NCBI RefSeq assembly: GCF_900890425.1
Contig: NZ_CAAHFG010000002.1
Location: 1,302,001-1,366,000, forward strand
Direction: 5' to 3'
DNA: 64,000 nucleotides
DNA from: Pontiella desulfatans
GTDB lineage: Bacteria; Verrucomicrobiota; Kiritimatiellia; Kiritimatiellales; Pontiellaceae
The notes beneath the pieces are model-generated. The model was given only the letters and a program-made list of their open reading frames with translations. It searched no databases and was not told the DNA's origin. Positions 1,606 through 33,000 of this stretch are shown one piece after another (the stretch's first letter is position 1; each line of letters begins with the position of its first letter). A program made the position numbers and the translations under genes.

Positions 1606-1645
1606 CCCCGACCCTTGGGGCGGGGAGCGTCATTAAAGAAGTAGT

Positions 1646-1664
1646 GCCGCCGCTACGCGGCTGC
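1646..1664. repeat. Solitary REP-like palindrome
   Basis: The core CCGC-TAC-GCGG hairpin of the RAYT-associated palindromes (see 6465-7170) occurs alone here, 31 bases before the start of the esterase gene. A GTAG tetranucleotide sits just upstream at 1641-1644. Confidence 0.7.
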
Positions 1665-1694
1665 ATTTTTACGTGGGGTGCGGGAAAAGGTACT

Positions 1695-4600
1695 ATGCAA
1701 ACGATACTCAAAACGGTCTGTTGTTCGATGCTGCTTGGATTCATCGCCGGGAACTCCTCGGCCGAATCAGAGGTGATTGCCGGGTGGCACGACTTCAATC
1801 CATCGGGCGCGAACGGTCTGTATAAAACATCGGCGGCGCAAAAGGCGCCGGATACTTCGCTCAATGGCGTGGACGGCGGGCTCTATTGCGCGGCGGGCAA
1901 CCGCTATAACTGGGGCTCGACCGACGGCACGTTCGGCACCTCGGCCGATACAGGGAGCACGTCCACCGACGGTGTAATGGCCATGCGCACCAATCCCGGC
2001 GAGGAAAGCTTGTTCTTCACGGTGGCCAACCATACCGGGGCCGACCTGGCGCTCGGCAGCATTGCCTTCGATTTCGATGGGATCAGCGCCAACGCCCCGA
2101 CCAACCTTTCGCTTCGCTATTTCGGCGGCGACCTCGGGGCAACCGAGGTGGAGATCAATTCCATCAGCGGGATCAACGCCCTGCGCAACGGAACCGTCAG
2201 CGACTATTACGATGTAGACTGGTCGCTCGCCGCGCTCGCCGATACCACGCTGGCCAACGGCGAGTCGGCCACGTTTCGTCTGTTCGTGAGCGATGCCGTC
2301 AACACGCTGCAAGCCATGGCCATCGACAACCTTGCCGTGTTGGGCGGCGGAACCGGCGCGCCCGTCACCACGTTGAAACCACGGAAATCCATCTCGATCA
2401 ACTTTACCAACGGCGAAGCGGACAAGACGATTGCCAGCGGCGAAATCGCAGGCTTCGAGCGTTCCAATGCCTGGAACGAGGCGCCGAGTTCTTCAGGGGG
2501 GCAGACCTCCGTCAACCTGCTCGATGATGCGGGGGAGGAGACCACCGCCTCGGTGACGACCACCTTCGGGCACCTGAACAGCGGCACCGGGGGAACGGGC
2601 TCGGCGAACGATCGGCTCTACCGCGCCTATGGTCTGGTGAGCGGATCCGAAGGCGTGGCCGTCAGCAACCTTCCGCCGGCGTTCACCGAGGCCGGCTATT
2701 CCGTGATCGTCTATTTCGATATCGATGCCGGGGTGGCGGATCGCACCCACTTTTTCACGCTGGGAAACCAAACCTTTTGGGGAACCGAAGAGTCCGGCTT
2801 TTTCAGCGGCACCTTCCGGCGGGCCAAAGGAAACACCGCAGGAGCGGCGTCTTCCACGGCAAACTATGCGGTCTTTACCGGGCTGACTAATTCCAACTTC
2901 ACCATTGCGGGCGGCACGGCCGACGGCGCCCGCGCGGCAATCTGTGGAATCCAGGTGGTGGCCGATGCCGGGGTGGATGTCTATCTGTTGAGCGGGCAGT
3001 CGAATATGGGCGGCTACGGGGAAGTCGCCGCCGCCCGGGCCGCGGGGCAGCAAATCGAGTTCCCGGAAATCCTGACCTACCATTCCGCGAACGTGGCCGC
3101 CAATTCTCCCGCGAAGACGCTGGGAACGCTCGCCCAGATGCCCGTCTACAACGCGGTCAACCATGGCCCCGAAATCGGGTTGGGCGATCGCCTGTTGGAG
3201 CTTAATCCCAACGGCACGCAGATGGCGTTCATCAAGCATGCGCAGGACGGGCGGAACCTCTATGACCATTTCGCGCCGGGAACCAACAGCGCCGATGTCG
3301 CCAACTGGGGCGAACATTTTTCGCTGCTGGTCGATACCGTCACCAACGGGTTGGCCGAGCTGCGTGCGCATGGATTCGAGCCCGCTATCCAGGGCATGGT
3401 CTGGCAGCAGGGCGAGGCCGATGCCAAATCGGAAACCTATACGAATATTTTTGGCGAGCAGGTTAATTCCTCCACGCAGTACGACACCAACATGCGCAAT
3501 TTTATCTCCCGTATCCGCGAACAGTTTGCGGCCGATGCGGGGGACGACGGTATTCGTTTTGTTCTCGGCGAAGTCTTTCCCCAGATCCGAGCGGATTTGG
3601 CGGATGTTTTTCCGGGCTATGAAACCGTAAAGGCGACGCAGCTGGGACTGGATGAAACCCAGACGAATGGTTTTCCCAACACGGCGACCGTTCCTGCCGA
3701 TACCGACGGCATGAGCACCAACGAGCAGATGGTCGATGGCTACCGCGACTGGGACGACATTCATTTGAGCTGGCAGGGGCAGGTGACCTTGGGCCGCAGT
3801 ATGGCCGATCTGCTGACGGGGCGTCGGGTCGCGATTGCGTCGCCTTCTTCCCGCCATATCGTTCAGCGCGATGCGGGCAATCGCGGAACCATAGAGGTGT
3901 CCGGAACCTACACCATCCCGCCGGATGTTGTGGAGGCCCGCACCGTCGTGATGGCGGGGGCTAATTCCGGAACCGGTTCCGCATGGTCGACCATTGCGGT
4001 CGCGCCGTCCAACGGCGTTTTCAACGGTGCGCTGACGAATATTGCCGCAGGCGGGTGGTATCGGCTGGAGGTTCGTTCCGTGATTCAAGGCGCGCCCGGC
4101 CCGGCGGCGGTGTTGGAAAAGGTTGGGGTGGGCGACATCTACATCACGTTTGGCCAATCCAACTCAGCCAACCACGGCGCCCCGGCGTTGACGCCGGACG
4201 ACGATCGGGTGGTGGCCCGCATGAGTCTCGACAACATGCTTTGGCAGCACGCCGCCGATCCGCAGCCGATCGCCAGCGGCAGCGGAGGCTCGCCGTGGTC
4301 GCGCCTCGGCGACCTGCTGGCGGCTTCGGAGAATGTACCGATCGGCTTCCTGTCCGTCGGCGTGGGAAGCACCAAGGTGATCCAATGGATTCCGGGCAGC
4401 ACCTACTACGACGAGCGGGTTCGGCCTGCGGTCGAATCATTTCCGGCGAACGGATTCCGCGCCATCCTGTGGCATCAGGGCGAGGCCGACTCCGGGGCGG
4501 GAACGGCGTTTGCAACCTACCGCGATCGCCTAGCGTCAATCATTGCCCAGACCCGCACCGATGCGGGTTGGAATATTCCTTGGTATGTCGCCGAGGTGTC

Positions 4601-5750
4601 GCGCCTGAGCGGCAGCAACCTGCTGAAAGGAATGCCGATCAACGCCGCTCAGCGCGCCGTCATCCATGCCGACGAAAACGTCTGGTTCGGAGCCGGCACC
4701 GACGATCTCCATTTGATGGGCATGCTGAACGATCTCAACCATTTCAACGCCGCCGGGTTGCTGGCGCACGCGCAGCTGTGGGCGGACATCCTGACCGGAA
4801 ACCCGGCGCCCACGGTGGACAATGCGGGTTTGGAGTCGAATACGCCGCTGGCCGAAGGCGCGGTGCATGTGGCCTCGGTCTCCGACACGTCGGCGGCCTC
4901 GCCGCAGGTGATCGGCTGGCGGATTCTCGATGCCGCCGGAACCGCCGCCTCCGATGGGACGGACGGCTACTACCATCCCGATAGCTCGGCCTACTCCGAG
5001 GCCGACCATGTGGCTTTCCTTGAAGGGGGCAGTGCGGGTAACCATTTCCTGCAGACCCTCCGCACGAGGGTGGTGCCCGATACCGGCTATACGTTGTCCG
5101 TTGCGCTGGGCCTTCGGAAGACGGGAACCTTCGGCAATGCGCGGATCGAGATGCTGGCCAACGGCGAAGCGGTTGCCTCGGCGACCGTCTCCGCATCCGA
5201 TCTGGTGGCCGATGCCTTCACGACGGTTTCAATTCCCTTTGTTTCGGGCAACAGCGTTGCCGTCAACCAGCCGCTGTCGATCCGCATCGTCAAGGTGGAT
5301 GGCGGCGATACCTATCTGGATTTCGACAACGTATCGCTGACGGCCGCCCGCACCCCGTTTTCGCTTTGGCAGGAAACCTGGTTCGGCGGAACGACCACCA
5401 GCACGGCGGGCATCCACGCCGACCCGGAAGGCGACGGCTTGTCCAACGGGCTGGAATATTTTCTCGGCAGCTCGCCCGAAGCCATCGACCCGCAACCGTT
5501 CAACGGCCCCGTCGTCGATGCCACGTCGGCGCAGGTTTCCGTGGCGCTGGATCCTTCCGTGACCGACGACGGGTTGGAGATGGATTATTCGTTCGACCTG
5601 GAAACCTGGTACGCCGCCGCCTCGGCCAGCCATCCCGGCGTTGAGTCGAGCCGGACGGCTTCCGAGTGGACGCTTGACGTGCCTGCCGAATTGAGCGAGC
5701 ACATGTTTTTCCGGATAAAGATCAATGATTCCGGCGTGCTAATCAAGTAG
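1695..5750 (+). CDS. Secreted protein with two SGNH / sialate O-acetylesterase-type modules
   Basis: A 1351-aa exported protein probably removing acetyl or similar ester groups from polysaccharide. The ATG at 1695 is preferred over the upstream 1644 because it has a GAAAAGG ribosome site and opens a signal peptide ending near GNSSAES. Order: an N-terminal beta domain (about 25-230), a second beta domain (about 240-425), SGNH module 1 (nucleophile Ser436 in SGQSNMGG; WQQGEAD with Glu574; DDIH with His690), a short linker domain, SGNH module 2 (Ser822 in GQSN; WHQGEAD with Glu930; DLNH with His1016), a carbohydrate-binding-like domain, an Asp/Gly-rich segment (DPEGDGLSNGLEY) and a C-terminal domain containing MFFRI. 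Both modules keep their catalytic blocks, so both look active. Carrying two in one chain is unusual. The ester specificity cannot be read from sequence. Confidence 0.85.
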   Translation: MQTILKTVCCSMLLGFIAGNSSAESEVIAGWHDFNPSGANGLYKTSAAQKAPDTSLNGVDGGLYCAAGNRYNWGSTDGTFGTSADTGSTSTDGVMAMRTNPGEESLFFTVANHTGADLALGSIAFDFDGISANAPTNLSLRYFGGDLGATEVEINSISGINALRNGTVSDYYDVDWSLAALADTTLANGESATFRLFVSDAVNTLQAMAIDNLAVLGGGTGAPVTTLKPRKSISINFTNGEADKTIASGEIAGFERSNAWNEAPSSSGGQTSVNLLDDAGEETTASVTTTFGHLNSGTGGTGSANDRLYRAYGLVSGSEGVAVSNLPPAFTEAGYSVIVYFDIDAGVADRTHFFTLGNQTFWGTEESGFFSGTFRRAKGNTAGAASSTANYAVFTGLTNSNFTIAGGTADGARAAICGIQVVADAGVDVYLLSGQSNMGGYGEVAAARAAGQQIEFPEILTYHSANVAANSPAKTLGTLAQMPVYNAVNHGPEIGLGDRLLELNPNGTQMAFIKHAQDGRNLYDHFAPGTNSADVANWGEHFSLLVDTVTNGLAELRAHGFEPAIQGMVWQQGEADAKSETYTNIFGEQVNSSTQYDTNMRNFISRIREQFAADAGDDGIRFVLGEVFPQIRADLADVFPGYETVKATQLGLDETQTNGFPNTATVPADTDGMSTNEQMVDGYRDWDDIHLSWQGQVTLGRSMADLLTGRRVAIASPSSRHIVQRDAGNRGTIEVSGTYTIPPDVVEARTVVMAGANSGTGSAWSTIAVAPSNGVFNGALTNIAAGGWYRLEVRSVIQGAPGPAAVLEKVGVGDIYITFGQSNSANHGAPALTPDDDRVVARMSLDNMLWQHAADPQPIASGSGGSPWSRLGDLLAASENVPIGFLSVGVGSTKVIQWIPGSTYYDERVRPAVESFPANGFRAILWHQGEADSGAGTAFATYRDRLASIIAQTRTDAGWNIPWYVAEVSRLSGSNLLKGMPINAAQRAVIHADENVWFGAGTDDLHLMGMLNDLNHFNAAGLLAHAQLWADILTGNPAPTVDNAGLESNTPLAEGAVHVASVSDTSAASPQVIGWRILDAAGTAASDGTDGYYHPDSSAYSEADHVAFLEGGSAGNHFLQTLRTRVVPDTGYTLSVALGLRKTGTFGNARIEMLANGEAVASATVSASDLVADAFTTVSIPFVSGNSVAVNQPLSIRIVKVDGGDTYLDFDNVSLTAARTPFSLWQETWFGGTTTSTAGIHADPEGDGLSNGLEYFLGSSPEAIDPQPFNGPVVDATSAQVSVALDPSVTDDGLEMDYSFDLETWYAAASASHPGVESSRTASEWTLDVPAELSEHMFFRIKINDSGVLIK

Positions 5751-5817
5751 AGCCGCCGCTACGCGGTGGCTTCTGCGGCGGGACGGTGCGAACGGAAGCC
5801 AGCACGTAGTGCAGGCT
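5751..5817. repeat. BIME-like unit upstream of the RAYT gene
   Basis: One PU1 palindrome (5751-5771) and one PU2 palindrome (5797-5817), the same pair that forms the array on the other side of the RAYT gene. The spacer between them is diverged from the array copies. Confidence 0.85.
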
Positions 5818-5852
5818 TTACTCTCCGTTCCGTCGTTCTTATCCTATGCGTA

Positions 5853-6464
5853 ATGGACAAGCCATGCACTTTGAAGTATACGCGCCGGAACTTGCCGCAT
5901 TGGCTGGTGGCCGATCATTCATATTTTGTAACGCTTCGATTGAAAGGAACCTTGCCTAGGCAGGTGAAAGAGCAATTCCGTGAGCAACGCAATCAAGTCG
6001 ATGAAGCAGAAGCCATGGAGTTGGCGAAAAAACAGTTTGCAACCGTTGAACGAATCCTCGATTCGATTTCGGATGTGCGTTGGTTGGCACAGTCGGACAT
6101 TACTTCGGTTGTTTGGGAAAGCCTGAATTGGTTGCGCGGCAGAGGTTGGATCGTGTATGCCGGGGTGTTGATGCCAAACCATGTGCATCTTCTCATACGC
6201 AACGAAGATGGACGCACTGCGGAAATGCTGGGGGATGTTGCCCGTTTCAAGAATTATACCGCGCGCGAGGCCAATAAGGTTCTTGGGCGAAGCGGTGCTT
6301 TTTGGGCGAGAGAGGATTTTGATCATTGGATCCGCAATCGCGAAAAGTTTGAGGGCACGGTTCGATACATTGCGAACAACCCGGTCAAGGCCGGGATGGT
6401 GTCGAACTGGTCAGAGTGGGACTGGACTGTAATCGATGGGTCGGTGCGGTATTGTCTCGAGTAA
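5853..6464 (+). CDS. REP-associated tyrosine transposase (RAYT, Y1/HUH type)
   Basis: A 203-aa single-strand DNA nuclease of the IS200/IS605-like Y1 superfamily, in the RAYT branch that processes REP hairpins. The HUH motif is His110-Val-His112 (preceded by MPN), and Tyr135 in NYTAR is the likely catalytic tyrosine. The conserved RAYT tail (YIANNPVKAGMV) is present. The ATG at 5853 (MDKPCTLKYTRRNLPHW) is the natural family start; the ORF's earlier ATG at 5766 lies inside a palindrome. The gene is bracketed by REP-like palindromes: one pair upstream and ten PU1 / nine PU2 downstream, the first touching the stop codon. No terminal repeats of an insertion sequence are visible, which fits a domesticated RAYT rather than a transposon. 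Confidence 0.92.
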   Translation: MDKPCTLKYTRRNLPHWLVADHSYFVTLRLKGTLPRQVKEQFREQRNQVDEAEAMELAKKQFATVERILDSISDVRWLAQSDITSVVWESLNWLRGRGWIVYAGVLMPNHVHLLIRNEDGRTAEMLGDVARFKNYTAREANKVLGRSGAFWAREDFDHWIRNREKFEGTVRYIANNPVKAGMVSNWSEWDWTVIDGSVRYCLE

Positions 6465-7170
6465 AGCCGCCGCTACGCGGTGGCTTATCGTTGGAGCGGT
6501 GCGGACGGGAGCCAGCACGTAGTGCAGGCTGTACCGGTAAAGCCGCCGCTACGCGGTGGCTTGTCGGTGGAGCGGTGCGTACGGGAGCCAGCACGTAGTG
6601 CAGGCTGTACCGGTAAAGCCGCCGCTACGCGGTGGCTTGTCGGTGGAGCGGTGCGTGCGGGAGCCAGCACGTAGTGCAGGCTGTTCCGGTAAAGCCGCCG
6701 CTACGCGGTGGCTTGTCGGTGGAGCGGTGCGTGCGGGAGCCAGCACGTAGTGCAGGCTGTTCCGGTAAAGCCGCCGCTACGCGGTGGCTTGTCGGTGGAG
6801 CGGTGCGTGCGGGAGCCAGCACGTAGTGCAGGCTGTACCGGTAAAGCCGCCGCTACGCGGTGGCTTATCGGTGGAGCGGTGCGTGCGGGAGCCAGCACGT
6901 AGTGCAGGCTGTTCCGGTAAAGCCGCCGCTACGCGGTGGCTTGTCGGTGGAGCGGTGCGTGCGGGAGCCAGCACGTAGTGCAGGCTGTACCGGTAAAGCC
7001 GCCGCTACGCGGTGGCTTATCGGTGGAGCGGTGCGTGCGGGAGCCAGCACAAAGTGCAGGCTGTACCGGTAAAGCCGCCGCTACGCGGTGGCTTATCGGT
7101 GGAGCGGTGCGTGCGGGAGCCAGCACAAAGTGCAGGCTGTACCGGTAAAGCCGCCGCTACGCGGTGGCTT
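6465..7170. repeat. Tandem 76-bp BIME-like array
   Basis: Ten copies of a 21-bp palindrome PU1 (at 6465 and every 76 bp to 7149) alternate with nine copies of PU2 (first at 6510-6530). PU1 is AGCC-G-CCGC-TAC-GCGG-T-GGCT; PU2 is AGCC-A-GCAC-GTA-GTGC-A-GGCT. Spacers are 24 and 10 nt and nearly invariant, with small changes such as GTACCGG/GTTCCGG. In copies 8 and 9 the PU2 loop is AAA instead of GTA while the stem is intact. After the tenth PU1 the sequence diverges. Open frames of about 64 codons through the array are by-products of a repeat of 76 bp (not a multiple of 3). Confidence 0.95.
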
Positions 7171-7354
7171 ATCGGTGGAGCGGTGCGCACGCAGAGCCCG
7201 CATGCAATCACGAGCATTTCCTGTGCCCCGTTTTTTTTGCATTCCCGCGTCCCGATTCCCGGATTCCCGGTGTTAAGGCAATGTCTGGCGGGAAACGAAC
7301 GTTGTCCGGCGGTTGATTCCCGGTGCTGAACCCATAACAGGACGAGGAGAAACA

Positions 7355-30006: not shown

Positions 30007-33000
30007 ATGAAAACTAAAACAGTCAGCGCAATCATCATGCTCACCGTTGCGGTGGGGCCTGCCCATGCGGCGGAATGGCGATGGACGGGGGCGGACGATG
30101 GGACACAATTTGATAATCCGCTGAACTGGGATGCCGAACCGGCATCTTTCCCGCAACCGGCAACGAACCATCTGTGGATTGCGGGGGGTGCGCCGGTGGC
30201 ATCGGCCGACATCCATCTGGGGGCGCAGCGGCTGCGTGTTTCATCCGGTTCGCTGGTGGCCGAAGGGATTTCCGCCGACGGCGATGCCACCGACCGGCGC
30301 GCCGGGCTGATCCTGGAAGGCGGCTCGGTCGAGGCCGACTATCTGGAGGATGTGATCTGCGGGCTGGAAGGCGCTGCCGCGCTGGTGTTGCGCAACACAA
30401 ATGCGCCGCTGCGCGATGCGTGGCTCGATCTCGGCTCGCTGGACTGCTCGGTGGTTTTCCGGGGCATGGAGCCGGATGCGGTTGAGGCCCTGGCCAACCT
30501 GCGCATTTCGGTGTTCGGCATCCAGCCGGTTCGGAATAAAAATTATCGGCTGGTCGATACCGGCGCCGATACGCGTCTTGAACCCTATTACTACGAATGG
30601 ACAGGGGCCGGCGATGGGGTTTCGCTCTATAAGGGCAACAACTGGGATACCGATCCCGACACCCCCGGTACGCAGGCCGCCGCCGATTGGAGCAGCACGA
30701 AAAAGCTTCCCGCCGGGCTCTATATTCCGTCGGGCAACGTGGGCGGCGGCGGTTTCGGCGTCAACTTGAACCTCTACCAGTTCCACATCGTCATGACCGG
30801 CGGCAAGATGAAGGGGCAGGGCGGGGGCGGCATCGTGGGCGGTGTCAACGCGCGCAACGACCGCAACCCGATCCATCTTTCCGGCGGTACGCTCGAGGTC
30901 GATTGGCTGCGCCAGATGGAACTGCACTTGAGCGGTTCCGGGAGCGCCATCCTGCGCAGTGCCACCGAGGCGCTCGACAATGCGGTCGTCACCATGAACG
31001 GCGAGGGGGTCTCGATTGAATTCACGCAGGCCACCTTCAACCAGGTGCGCGAGTTTTATCTGCCGATGATCTCGGCCAACGGGCCGCTGGCGGTCTCGCC
31101 GGACGGCGGCAGCTTGGTCGTGAACGTCCATCGCGACGCCAATACGAATGGCATGGACGATGTTTGGGAAACCAACTGGGCGGGCGCCGACGATGGCGAC
31201 GGGCTGGATCTGTTGGGCGAATATTTGGCCGGCACCGATCCCTCCAATCCGGATACCGATGGCGACACGATCCTGGACGGCGCGGATCCCGATCCGCTCA
31301 AGGCGGATGCCGATGGCGACGGGCTTTCCGACCCGGATGAAGTGGCTGCGGGCACCGATCCGCTCAACCCCAATTCCGATGGCGATCGCTTTCTCGACGG
31401 CGGCGAAGTCCTGCGCGGCACCGACCCGCTTGATCCCGCCAGCCAGCCGGTTGCGCCCAATATTATCCTGGTGATGGCCGACGATGCCGGGTGGGGCGAG
31501 CTGGGTTGCTATGGCAATGCCACGGTGCAGACCCCGGTTCTCGACCAGATGGCGGCGGAGGGGCTGCGCTTCACCAGCTTCTATTCCAGCGGCTGCGTCT
31601 GCGCTCCCACGCGCTATTCGATTTTGATGGGGCAGCACACCGGGCGTGCCGCGCTGCGCTCGTGGAACGTGCGCCTGCGCCCCGGCGACCCAACGCTCGC
31701 CACCATGCTGCGCGATGCCGGCTACAACACCGGCGTGTTCGGCAAGTGGGGCGTCGGCGATGCCGGCAACGGGGGCATGCCGACGCAGGGCGGCTTCCAG
31801 CGCTTCTTCGGAATCGTCGACCACCAGGAAGGGCACCGCCACTACCATCGCTACCTGTGGCGCGACCTCGATCCGGTCTTCTACAACCCCGTCACCGCGT
31901 GGCGGCACAACGACGCCCCGCTCGATTTCCCGGGGGCGGGCAATTCGGGCATCATGAATGGCGATTTGGAGGCGAACCGCGGCAACATCCATTCGCACGA
32001 CCTCATTACGCAGGAGCTCTTCGGGTTCATTCAAGATCACACGAACGAGGCGTTCTTCGCCTATTGGAACCCGATCCACCCGCACGGGCCGATCCAGGAG
32101 AGCGCACACCCGGACGACCTCGTCGACGGCGACGGCATTCTGGCGGATACGGCGTACCGCAGCATGGTCGATGCGTTCTACGCCGGCTCCGGCCTTTCCG
32201 ATAGCCAGCTGGGCCGGATTTCGCAAACCACGGCCATCGACCACGACATGGGGCGGTTGATCGCCAAGCTCAACGAGTTGGGAATCGCCGACAACACCAT
32301 CATCCTGTTCACCTCGGACAACGGGTCGGATGCCGTCTATGCGGACGATCCGGATCTAATGCTGGTCGGGGATTTGAACGGCAACAAGTGGATCCTGCAC
32401 GAGGGCGGCATCCGCGTGCCGCTGATCGCGTGGTCGCCCTCGCTGATCCCGGCCAACGAAACCATCGACCATCCCGCCGCGATGGACGACCTCTACCCCA
32501 CGCTGGCGGAACTCTGCGGCGGCATCAACCACCGAGGGCTGACCGGCCACTCGTTCGCCTCGCTGCTCAAGGGCGGGGCAGCGGCTTCGCTCGAACCGTG
32601 GCCGCTTTATTGGGAATGGGCGACCGGGAACTATTGGGAGCGCGCCGTGCGCCATGGCGATTGGAAGCTGCGCCGCCTACGCTCGAAAACCGACGCAACC
32701 GATGCCTACGAACTCTACAACCTGACGGCGAACCGGCAGGAGTCGGTCAACCTGGTTGCCACCGAGCCCGAACGGTTCGCCCTGCTTGCCCGCCTGATGG
32801 ACGATCCGTACTACCACGATGTCGGCTTCGAAAACTTCCGCGCAACGGACGAGGTGGCGCTCGCGGACGGCGACCAATCGCTCGCGAAGGGATCGGTGGG
32901 GTTCATCCTCGACGAAGGCATGGCCACGTGGACGCCGCTGGCCGTGGCGCAGTCCAATGCGGTTGGCCTTTCGCTCCGCATGAAACTCGATGCGGGCGAG

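Follow-up and report, generated by a model that had tools for sequence, protein, structure and literature searches.

Our analysis of the 64,000-nucleotide stretch shown here (hereafter 'the window') leads us to propose, with a probability of roughly 0.8, that the locus described below is a REPtron, in which GTAR-tagged REP doublets belonging to the RAYT lie on both sides of its gene and the one behind the gene has expanded to a BIME-type array; the RAYT would cleave and mobilise the REPs, and the array would have grown in place. The system is real and not unprecedented, being the REPtron/BIME of a RAYT clade that is spread through the phylum. The surprise lies outside the window, where distant RAYTs reside inside essential genes of related bacteria.

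Architecture of the locus

The locus comprises the following features (window coordinates).

1644..5750, + strand: preceding gene, coding for a SASA carbohydrate esterase with an HpiC1-like domain; its TAG stop lies inside a REP tag
5747..5771, + strand: upstream REP PU1, with the GTAG tag at 5747-5750 followed by the 21-nt hairpin
5748-5750, + strand: TAG stop of the preceding gene, within the upstream PU1 tag
5797..5821, - strand: upstream REP PU2, 21-nt hairpin plus TTAC (GTAA on the - strand)
5853..6464, + strand: RAYT gene (203 aa, ATG at 5853), assigned by family, alignment and fold match
6180..6188, + strand: HUH motif H110-V111-H112, from the alignment
6366..6368, + strand: predicted catalytic Tyr172 in a YIANNP motif, from the alignment and by homology only
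6461..7187, + strand: array of BIME type in 9.6 units of 76 bp, with ten PU1 (+) and nine PU2 (-) in alternation
6462-6464, + strand: TAA stop of the RAYT gene, overlapping the first array REP

In REP orientation the hairpin reads GTA[A/G/C] followed by AGCC-N-NNNN-TAY-N'N'N'N'-N-GGCT (21 nt, 8 pairs), that is, a short hairpin with an unpaired GTAG-type tag at one end, as defines REPs of the GTAG superfamily. Tandem Repeats Finder delineates the array at 6461-7187 (period 76, 9.6 copies, 98% matches, score 1342). PU1 (AAGCCGCCGCTACGCGGTGGCTT) is present in ten exact copies in the array and, with a single change, once upstream of the RAYT gene, while PU2 is found there nine times (seven exact copies, two with the loop changed from GT to AA) and once before the gene. 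Within a unit the starts of PU1 and PU2 are 45 bases apart, and the ensuing 45/31-base alternation, with alternating orientation and regular spacers over 9.6 tandem units, is that of a BIME; the array tags face outward across a 24-25-nt spacer and inward, across GTACCGGTAA, to the next unit. The first-pass annotation had described a palindrome pair before the gene and, from the stop codon onward, a 76-bp array with ten PU1 and nine PU2, and its coordinates, counts and period were right.

The upstream PU1 and PU2 (5747-5821) form an outward doublet, and alignment reveals the same outward layout and a related spacer in the array unit. Hence, one and the same doublet stands on both sides of the RAYT gene and was multiplied on the downstream side. 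The array starts at the RAYT stop codon (GAG TAA AGCC), where G-TAA constitutes the REP tetranucleotide; the 3' end of the gene is outside the array, its last 12 nt occurring a single time in the window. That the window RAYT might be inserted within a larger gene, as the distant RAYTs discussed below are, was considered and is ruled out by its open frame of 237 codons. Elsewhere in the window, a long ORF contains a 66-bp coding repeat (31289-31430, 2.2 copies, DPLNPNADGDALSDPDE-like) that resembles calcium-binding repeats.

Among 21 aligned REP copies, 99.4% of the stem cells are paired, with a covariation that none of 500 shuffles reaches, and two stem positions exhibit compensatory changes. 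The REPs form strong hairpins in DNA and RNA folds (z = -4.3 for the DNA fold of the upstream pair), and control searches with reversed PU1 and PU2 patterns gave 0 matches genome-wide. Chance palindromes are excluded by the covariation, this control and the model matches elsewhere in the genome.

The nine full array units have a mean identity of 96.5% (93.4-100%). Units 3 and 4, 5 and 7, and 8 and 9 are identical, and units 1 and 2 carry private changes, which points to local duplication; other variants are common to blocks of units. The recent amplification that had been postulated from the near identity of the copies is thus upheld as local tandem duplication, and the RAYT remains a putative driver of it.

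The RAYT protein

Both histidines (H110, H112) and Tyr172 are invariant among 12 aligned relatives, and the protein combines the HUH motif and one predicted catalytic tyrosine with a Y1 transposase fold, as is diagnostic of RAYTs. A sequence search of the PDB yields entry 4er8 (E 7e-4), the E. coli RAYT (REP transposase) bound to a REP hairpin. 4er8 is also the best Foldseek match (E 1.1e-6) of an AlphaFold model built with 12 relatives (mean pLDDT 83), followed by the IS200, ISDra2 and IS608 transposases. The protein matches the NCBIfam family REP_Tyr_transpos (NF047646) with E 1.5e-20 and 73.5 bits, under the 80-bit cut-off, and Pfam Y1_Tnp with 20.2 bits, just under the 23-bit threshold; these narrowly missed thresholds are set by curators' convention and do not define the family. 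Searching PHROGs gave only a weak match to an unnamed family. Inverted REPs with a GTAG-like tag flank the gene (doublet before, array after), and the several near-identical whole copies expected of an IS200/IS605 element are not found, the gene being present in one copy with the next best 30% identical. The initial assignment of a RAYT with intact HUH and Tyr residues is thus borne out by the invariant residues and the fold match, and its placement within its own REP/BIME-type repeats by the NCBIfam match (below cut-off), by 4er8 and by palindromes elsewhere in the genome.

REPs in the genome and its relatives

A covariance model (R1) of the REP was run on the 8,658,305-base genome and gave 45 matches at E <= 1.1e-3, of which 21 are in the window and 24 elsewhere; the copies from the pattern search that seeded R1 match by construction. 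The REPs are thus dispersed, with only 24 copies outside the locus: at 14 loci there are ten doublets (five outward, five inward) and four single REPs. REPs usually exceed 100 per genome (PMC2817692, available in part). The first-pass annotation had proposed to search the genome for the hairpins, and it is these 24 further copies that the search delivered. Near the other RAYT-like genes of this genome, a comparison of coordinates showed no R1 matches. On C3 (405782-405863 and 406001-406081) two similar outward doublets are separated by about 220 bp, and a GACCGCAAAGACGCCAAG-like stretch precedes each of them, which suggests a local duplication.

R1 has matches in 11 of 57 relatives, mostly in G014 (53) and G016 (34), and none in G021. 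G014 contains short arrays of these REPs with a period of ~80 nt, far from any close RAYT. No RAYT above about 36% identity was found in G014 or G016, both of which are fragmented drafts of 200 or more contigs. The annotation had held that its reading would fail if the palindromes were absent elsewhere in the genome or if the array occurred in relatives devoid of the RAYT gene. The palindromes are present elsewhere, with 24 copies at 14 loci; the second point does find some substance in G014 and G016, where the same REP model matches without a close RAYT, but in fragmented drafts. An orthologue of the last 352 aa of the preceding gene was not found in the 57 relatives, so that this site offers no empty-site comparison.

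A RAYT clade and its palindromes

Relatives of the RAYT were sought in the contigs of related genomes and in a scan of 387 genomes of the phylum. Those of 42-57% identity belong to scattered families and to Lentisphaerota. At all 12 loci examined with a RAYT of at least 42% identity, this locus included, palindromes surround the gene; a hairpin script detects tagged hairpins at 11 of the 12 and misses the long downstream hairpins of G030 and the array of L294, both of which were seen by eye. In L294 arrays lie on both sides of the RAYT, by eye with no obvious GTA tag. Most RAYTs of 34-40% identity lack flanking palindromes according to the script. Arrays or repeated doublets accompany the RAYT at L294, L295, L297, L298, L299 and L300.

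The hairpin layout follows the RAYT tree. In the six-member clade of the window RAYT (support 97/94), five members have a 21-nt hairpin whose loop consists of three bases (TAC, TAT or TGC), the hairpins of G030 being longer, while L067 and L299 (97/95) share an 18-nt hairpin. Taken together with the palindromes at 12 of 12 loci, this indicates that the coupling of RAYT and repeat characterises the clade and is not peculiar to this genome. The locus thereby adds, outside Proteobacteria, a coherent RAYT clade whose hairpin layout tracks the transposase tree.

REP tags as stop codons

Among 17 outward tags, counted by hand, six constitute the stop codon of an ORF of 237-1391 codons: those of the preceding gene (AAG TAG) and the RAYT gene (GAG TAA), and those at C1:292590, C3:558608, C4:486305 and C5:436468. 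As a background, an ORF of at least 200 codons terminates at 9 of the 390 GTAR sites in the window (2.3%), and the excess at outward tags is significant (p = 1.5e-6). Two of the five inward doublets abut a TGA stop, and in G009 a single doublet provides the stops of both of two convergent genes. That GTAG REPs supply stop codons has been published (PMC3733652, available in part).

At the yihY-like gene at C4:486305 one site has been used repeatedly (gene ends L233, L242, L236 and L244 in different congeners). Its orthologues in this genome and in G016 carry this REP at the stop, and other orthologues have no palindrome there, while the proteins end within a few residues of each other. Protein ends that stay alike despite differing palindromes fit insertion beside a pre-existing GTAR stop. 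A different GTAG palindrome is seen at the same stop in G005 and G001.

Distant RAYTs within host genes

The distant RAYTs of relatives (Pfam Y1_Tnp) are often located in frame inside conserved genes, namely those coding for XseA (exonuclease VII), the CCA-adding enzyme, HypF, PriA and a B12-radical-SAM/DUF4080 protein, and at the end of TatD. Such loci are L041, L042, L029, L034 and L038 (DUF4080 radical SAM), L033 (XseA), L043 and L047 (CCA tRNA nucleotidyltransferase), L046 (HypF) and L030 (TatD end); L082-L089 represent other PVC genomes with in-frame Y1_Tnp. The in-frame domains are flanked by palindrome-coded peptides, e.g. RRDACDT..VPQASRLP, and in one radical-SAM gene (L034, G014 C212) an in-frame tandem array of the palindrome-coded 17-aa peptide RQDVGDTVPPASCGQHS lies on either side of the in-frame RAYT.

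PriA was followed through 27 genomes (loci L263-L292, e.g. L287 in G021, L264 in G030 and L284 in this genome at C4:916033). The distance from its linker to GVTGSGKTE is 101-135 aa without a RAYT and 320-374 aa with one. The linker site is empty in G008, G010, G019 and G027, holds an in-frame REP pair only in this genome, G001 and G004, and harbours REP-RAYT-REP in frame in the 14 genomes in which the RAYT is present. In several cases one end reads GTA GAC and the opposite one TCT AC or GTC TAC, that is, GTAG..CTAC facing outward and in frame. The insert is present in G021 (5 contigs) and in G030 (7 contigs), so that assembly error is unlikely to account for all of them. On the PriA tree, RAYT presence requires 7 changes (bootstrap 6-8; many forks are weak), while the RAYTs carried by PriA group in a single clade of 13 (97/90) with two types, each found in both host families. 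This suggests intein-like gain, loss and exchange; no evidence of splicing was found for the inserts. We regard the priA states as a lead and not as proof of mobility, vertical inheritance with repeated loss being the alternative.

The intragenic REPs described in the available part of PMC3733652 encode short stretches of 20-82 aa. Our literature search, which did not cover most subscription papers, found no published RAYT in frame within a host gene, and nothing relevant on REPs in Kiritimatiellae, transposases in Pontiella or Y1_Tnp in PriA.

Proposed mechanism and alternatives

E. coli TnpAREP is reported to recognise REP in single-stranded form and to cleave GTAG (cited in PMC3733652, available in part). 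By analogy, the window RAYT most likely binds the hairpin of single-stranded REP DNA, would cleave beside the GTAR tetranucleotide with Tyr172, and may move or copy REP doublets, in trans, to other GTAR sites. Insertions beside a GTAR that already serves as stop codon (G-TAA or G-TAG) would survive, since they leave the host gene intact. Tandem duplication of the 76-bp unit, through slippage, through unequal recombination or by way of a circular intermediate, would then have lengthened the array in place. A circle of an outward doublet could carry the inward junction NTAC-CG-GTAN, and a published model derives REP arrays from circular intermediates (reported in PMC3733652, available in part). 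The REPtron reading is supported by the fold and family of the protein, the ten doublets among the 14 other loci, the covariation, the clade association, the stop bias, the different palindromes at the stop of the yihY-like orthologues and the identical neighbouring units. Against it stand the REPs of G014 and G016 without a close RAYT, the score of the RAYT under the NCBIfam cut-off and the low copy number.

The array might instead be a plain minisatellite, that is, a REP doublet beside a gene that was multiplied by slippage or unequal recombination, the RAYT having at most placed the first doublet. Identical neighbouring units (3 and 4, 8 and 9) and variants in blocks are just what tandem duplication predicts, and the short arrays of related REPs in G014 are far from any close RAYT, so that we rate this explanation as a serious one, a little short of an even chance; chance placement would not, however, make arrays or repeated doublets hug the RAYT in independent members of the clade (L294, L295, L297-L300). 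It is rather improbable that the REPs are kept for a host role, such as transcription termination, mRNA 3'-end protection or protein binding, and that the RAYT is a domesticated housekeeping protein, mobility being over. The location of REPs at gene ends is well known, and roles in RNA have been proposed for it (PMC3733652, available in part), and the hairpins are strong in DNA and RNA folds, but turnover better fits the low copy number, the patchy distribution of RAYT and REPs among congeners, the near-identical array units and the different palindromes at one gene end in relatives. That the REPs belong to another RAYT, with the window gene merely sitting among them, appears very unlikely: although such REPs are present in G014 and G016, where no close relative of the window RAYT was detected, the other RAYT-like genes of this genome have no R1 matches nearby, and REPs of the gene's own type recur around its clade.

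Beyond the REPtron reading of the window, it is tempting to speculate, if only tentatively, that REP-RAYT-REP units are mobile elements in these PVC bacteria, inserting beside GTAR without breaking the host gene, either at the stop (G-TAR) or in frame (GTA-G.., as in priA); the window would then represent the stop-codon form. If so, the view that RAYTs no longer move needs revision. The locus links the choice of GTAR as target, in a testable form, to survival where the tag is a stop codon. Whether RAYTs still move could be tested directly on the allelic states that relatives show at the priA site. The pointer to GTAR-directed insertion in this lineage, at stops or in frame, is in our opinion the most valuable outcome.

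Comparison with known systems

BIMEs joined to rayt genes have been published (Nunvar et al. 2010, PMC2817692, available in part). As at the rayt loci with BIME of Stenotrophomonas and others described there, the RAYT gene is flanked by inverted REPs, a REP follows right after its stop and the downstream REP is within a BIME; those loci are from Proteobacteria, whereas the array in the window leaves out the 3' end of the rayt gene, and the RAYT belongs to another clade. E. coli TnpAREP (4er8) likewise combines the HUH-Y1 fold with a GTAG-type tag beside the hairpin and alternating REPs in tandem groups. However, identity over the structural match is 17%, the window RAYT is the longer protein, and, unlike E. 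coli REPs, those studied here have a 21-nt hairpin with a TAY loop, few copies per genome and GTAA, GTAG or GTAC as tag.

That RAYT/REP systems are known mainly in Proteobacteria, as the annotation stated, is right by abundance; yet GTAG REPs have been published for the PVC superphylum, with Opitutus terrae being highly enriched (Di Nocera et al. 2013, PMC3733652, available in part). The setting in a PVC-type genome, which had been considered notable, is therefore not exceptional, as RAYT-plus-repeat loci of this clade are found in many lineages of the phylum. The PVC GTAG REPs come from the same superphylum as ours. The available text of that paper does not name this REP sequence or host class, and our REPs differ in providing GTAA as well as GTAG stops and in their low copy number; both share the GTAG-type tag, head-head and tail-tail dimers, groups, tag-supplied stop codons and in-frame intragenic copies.
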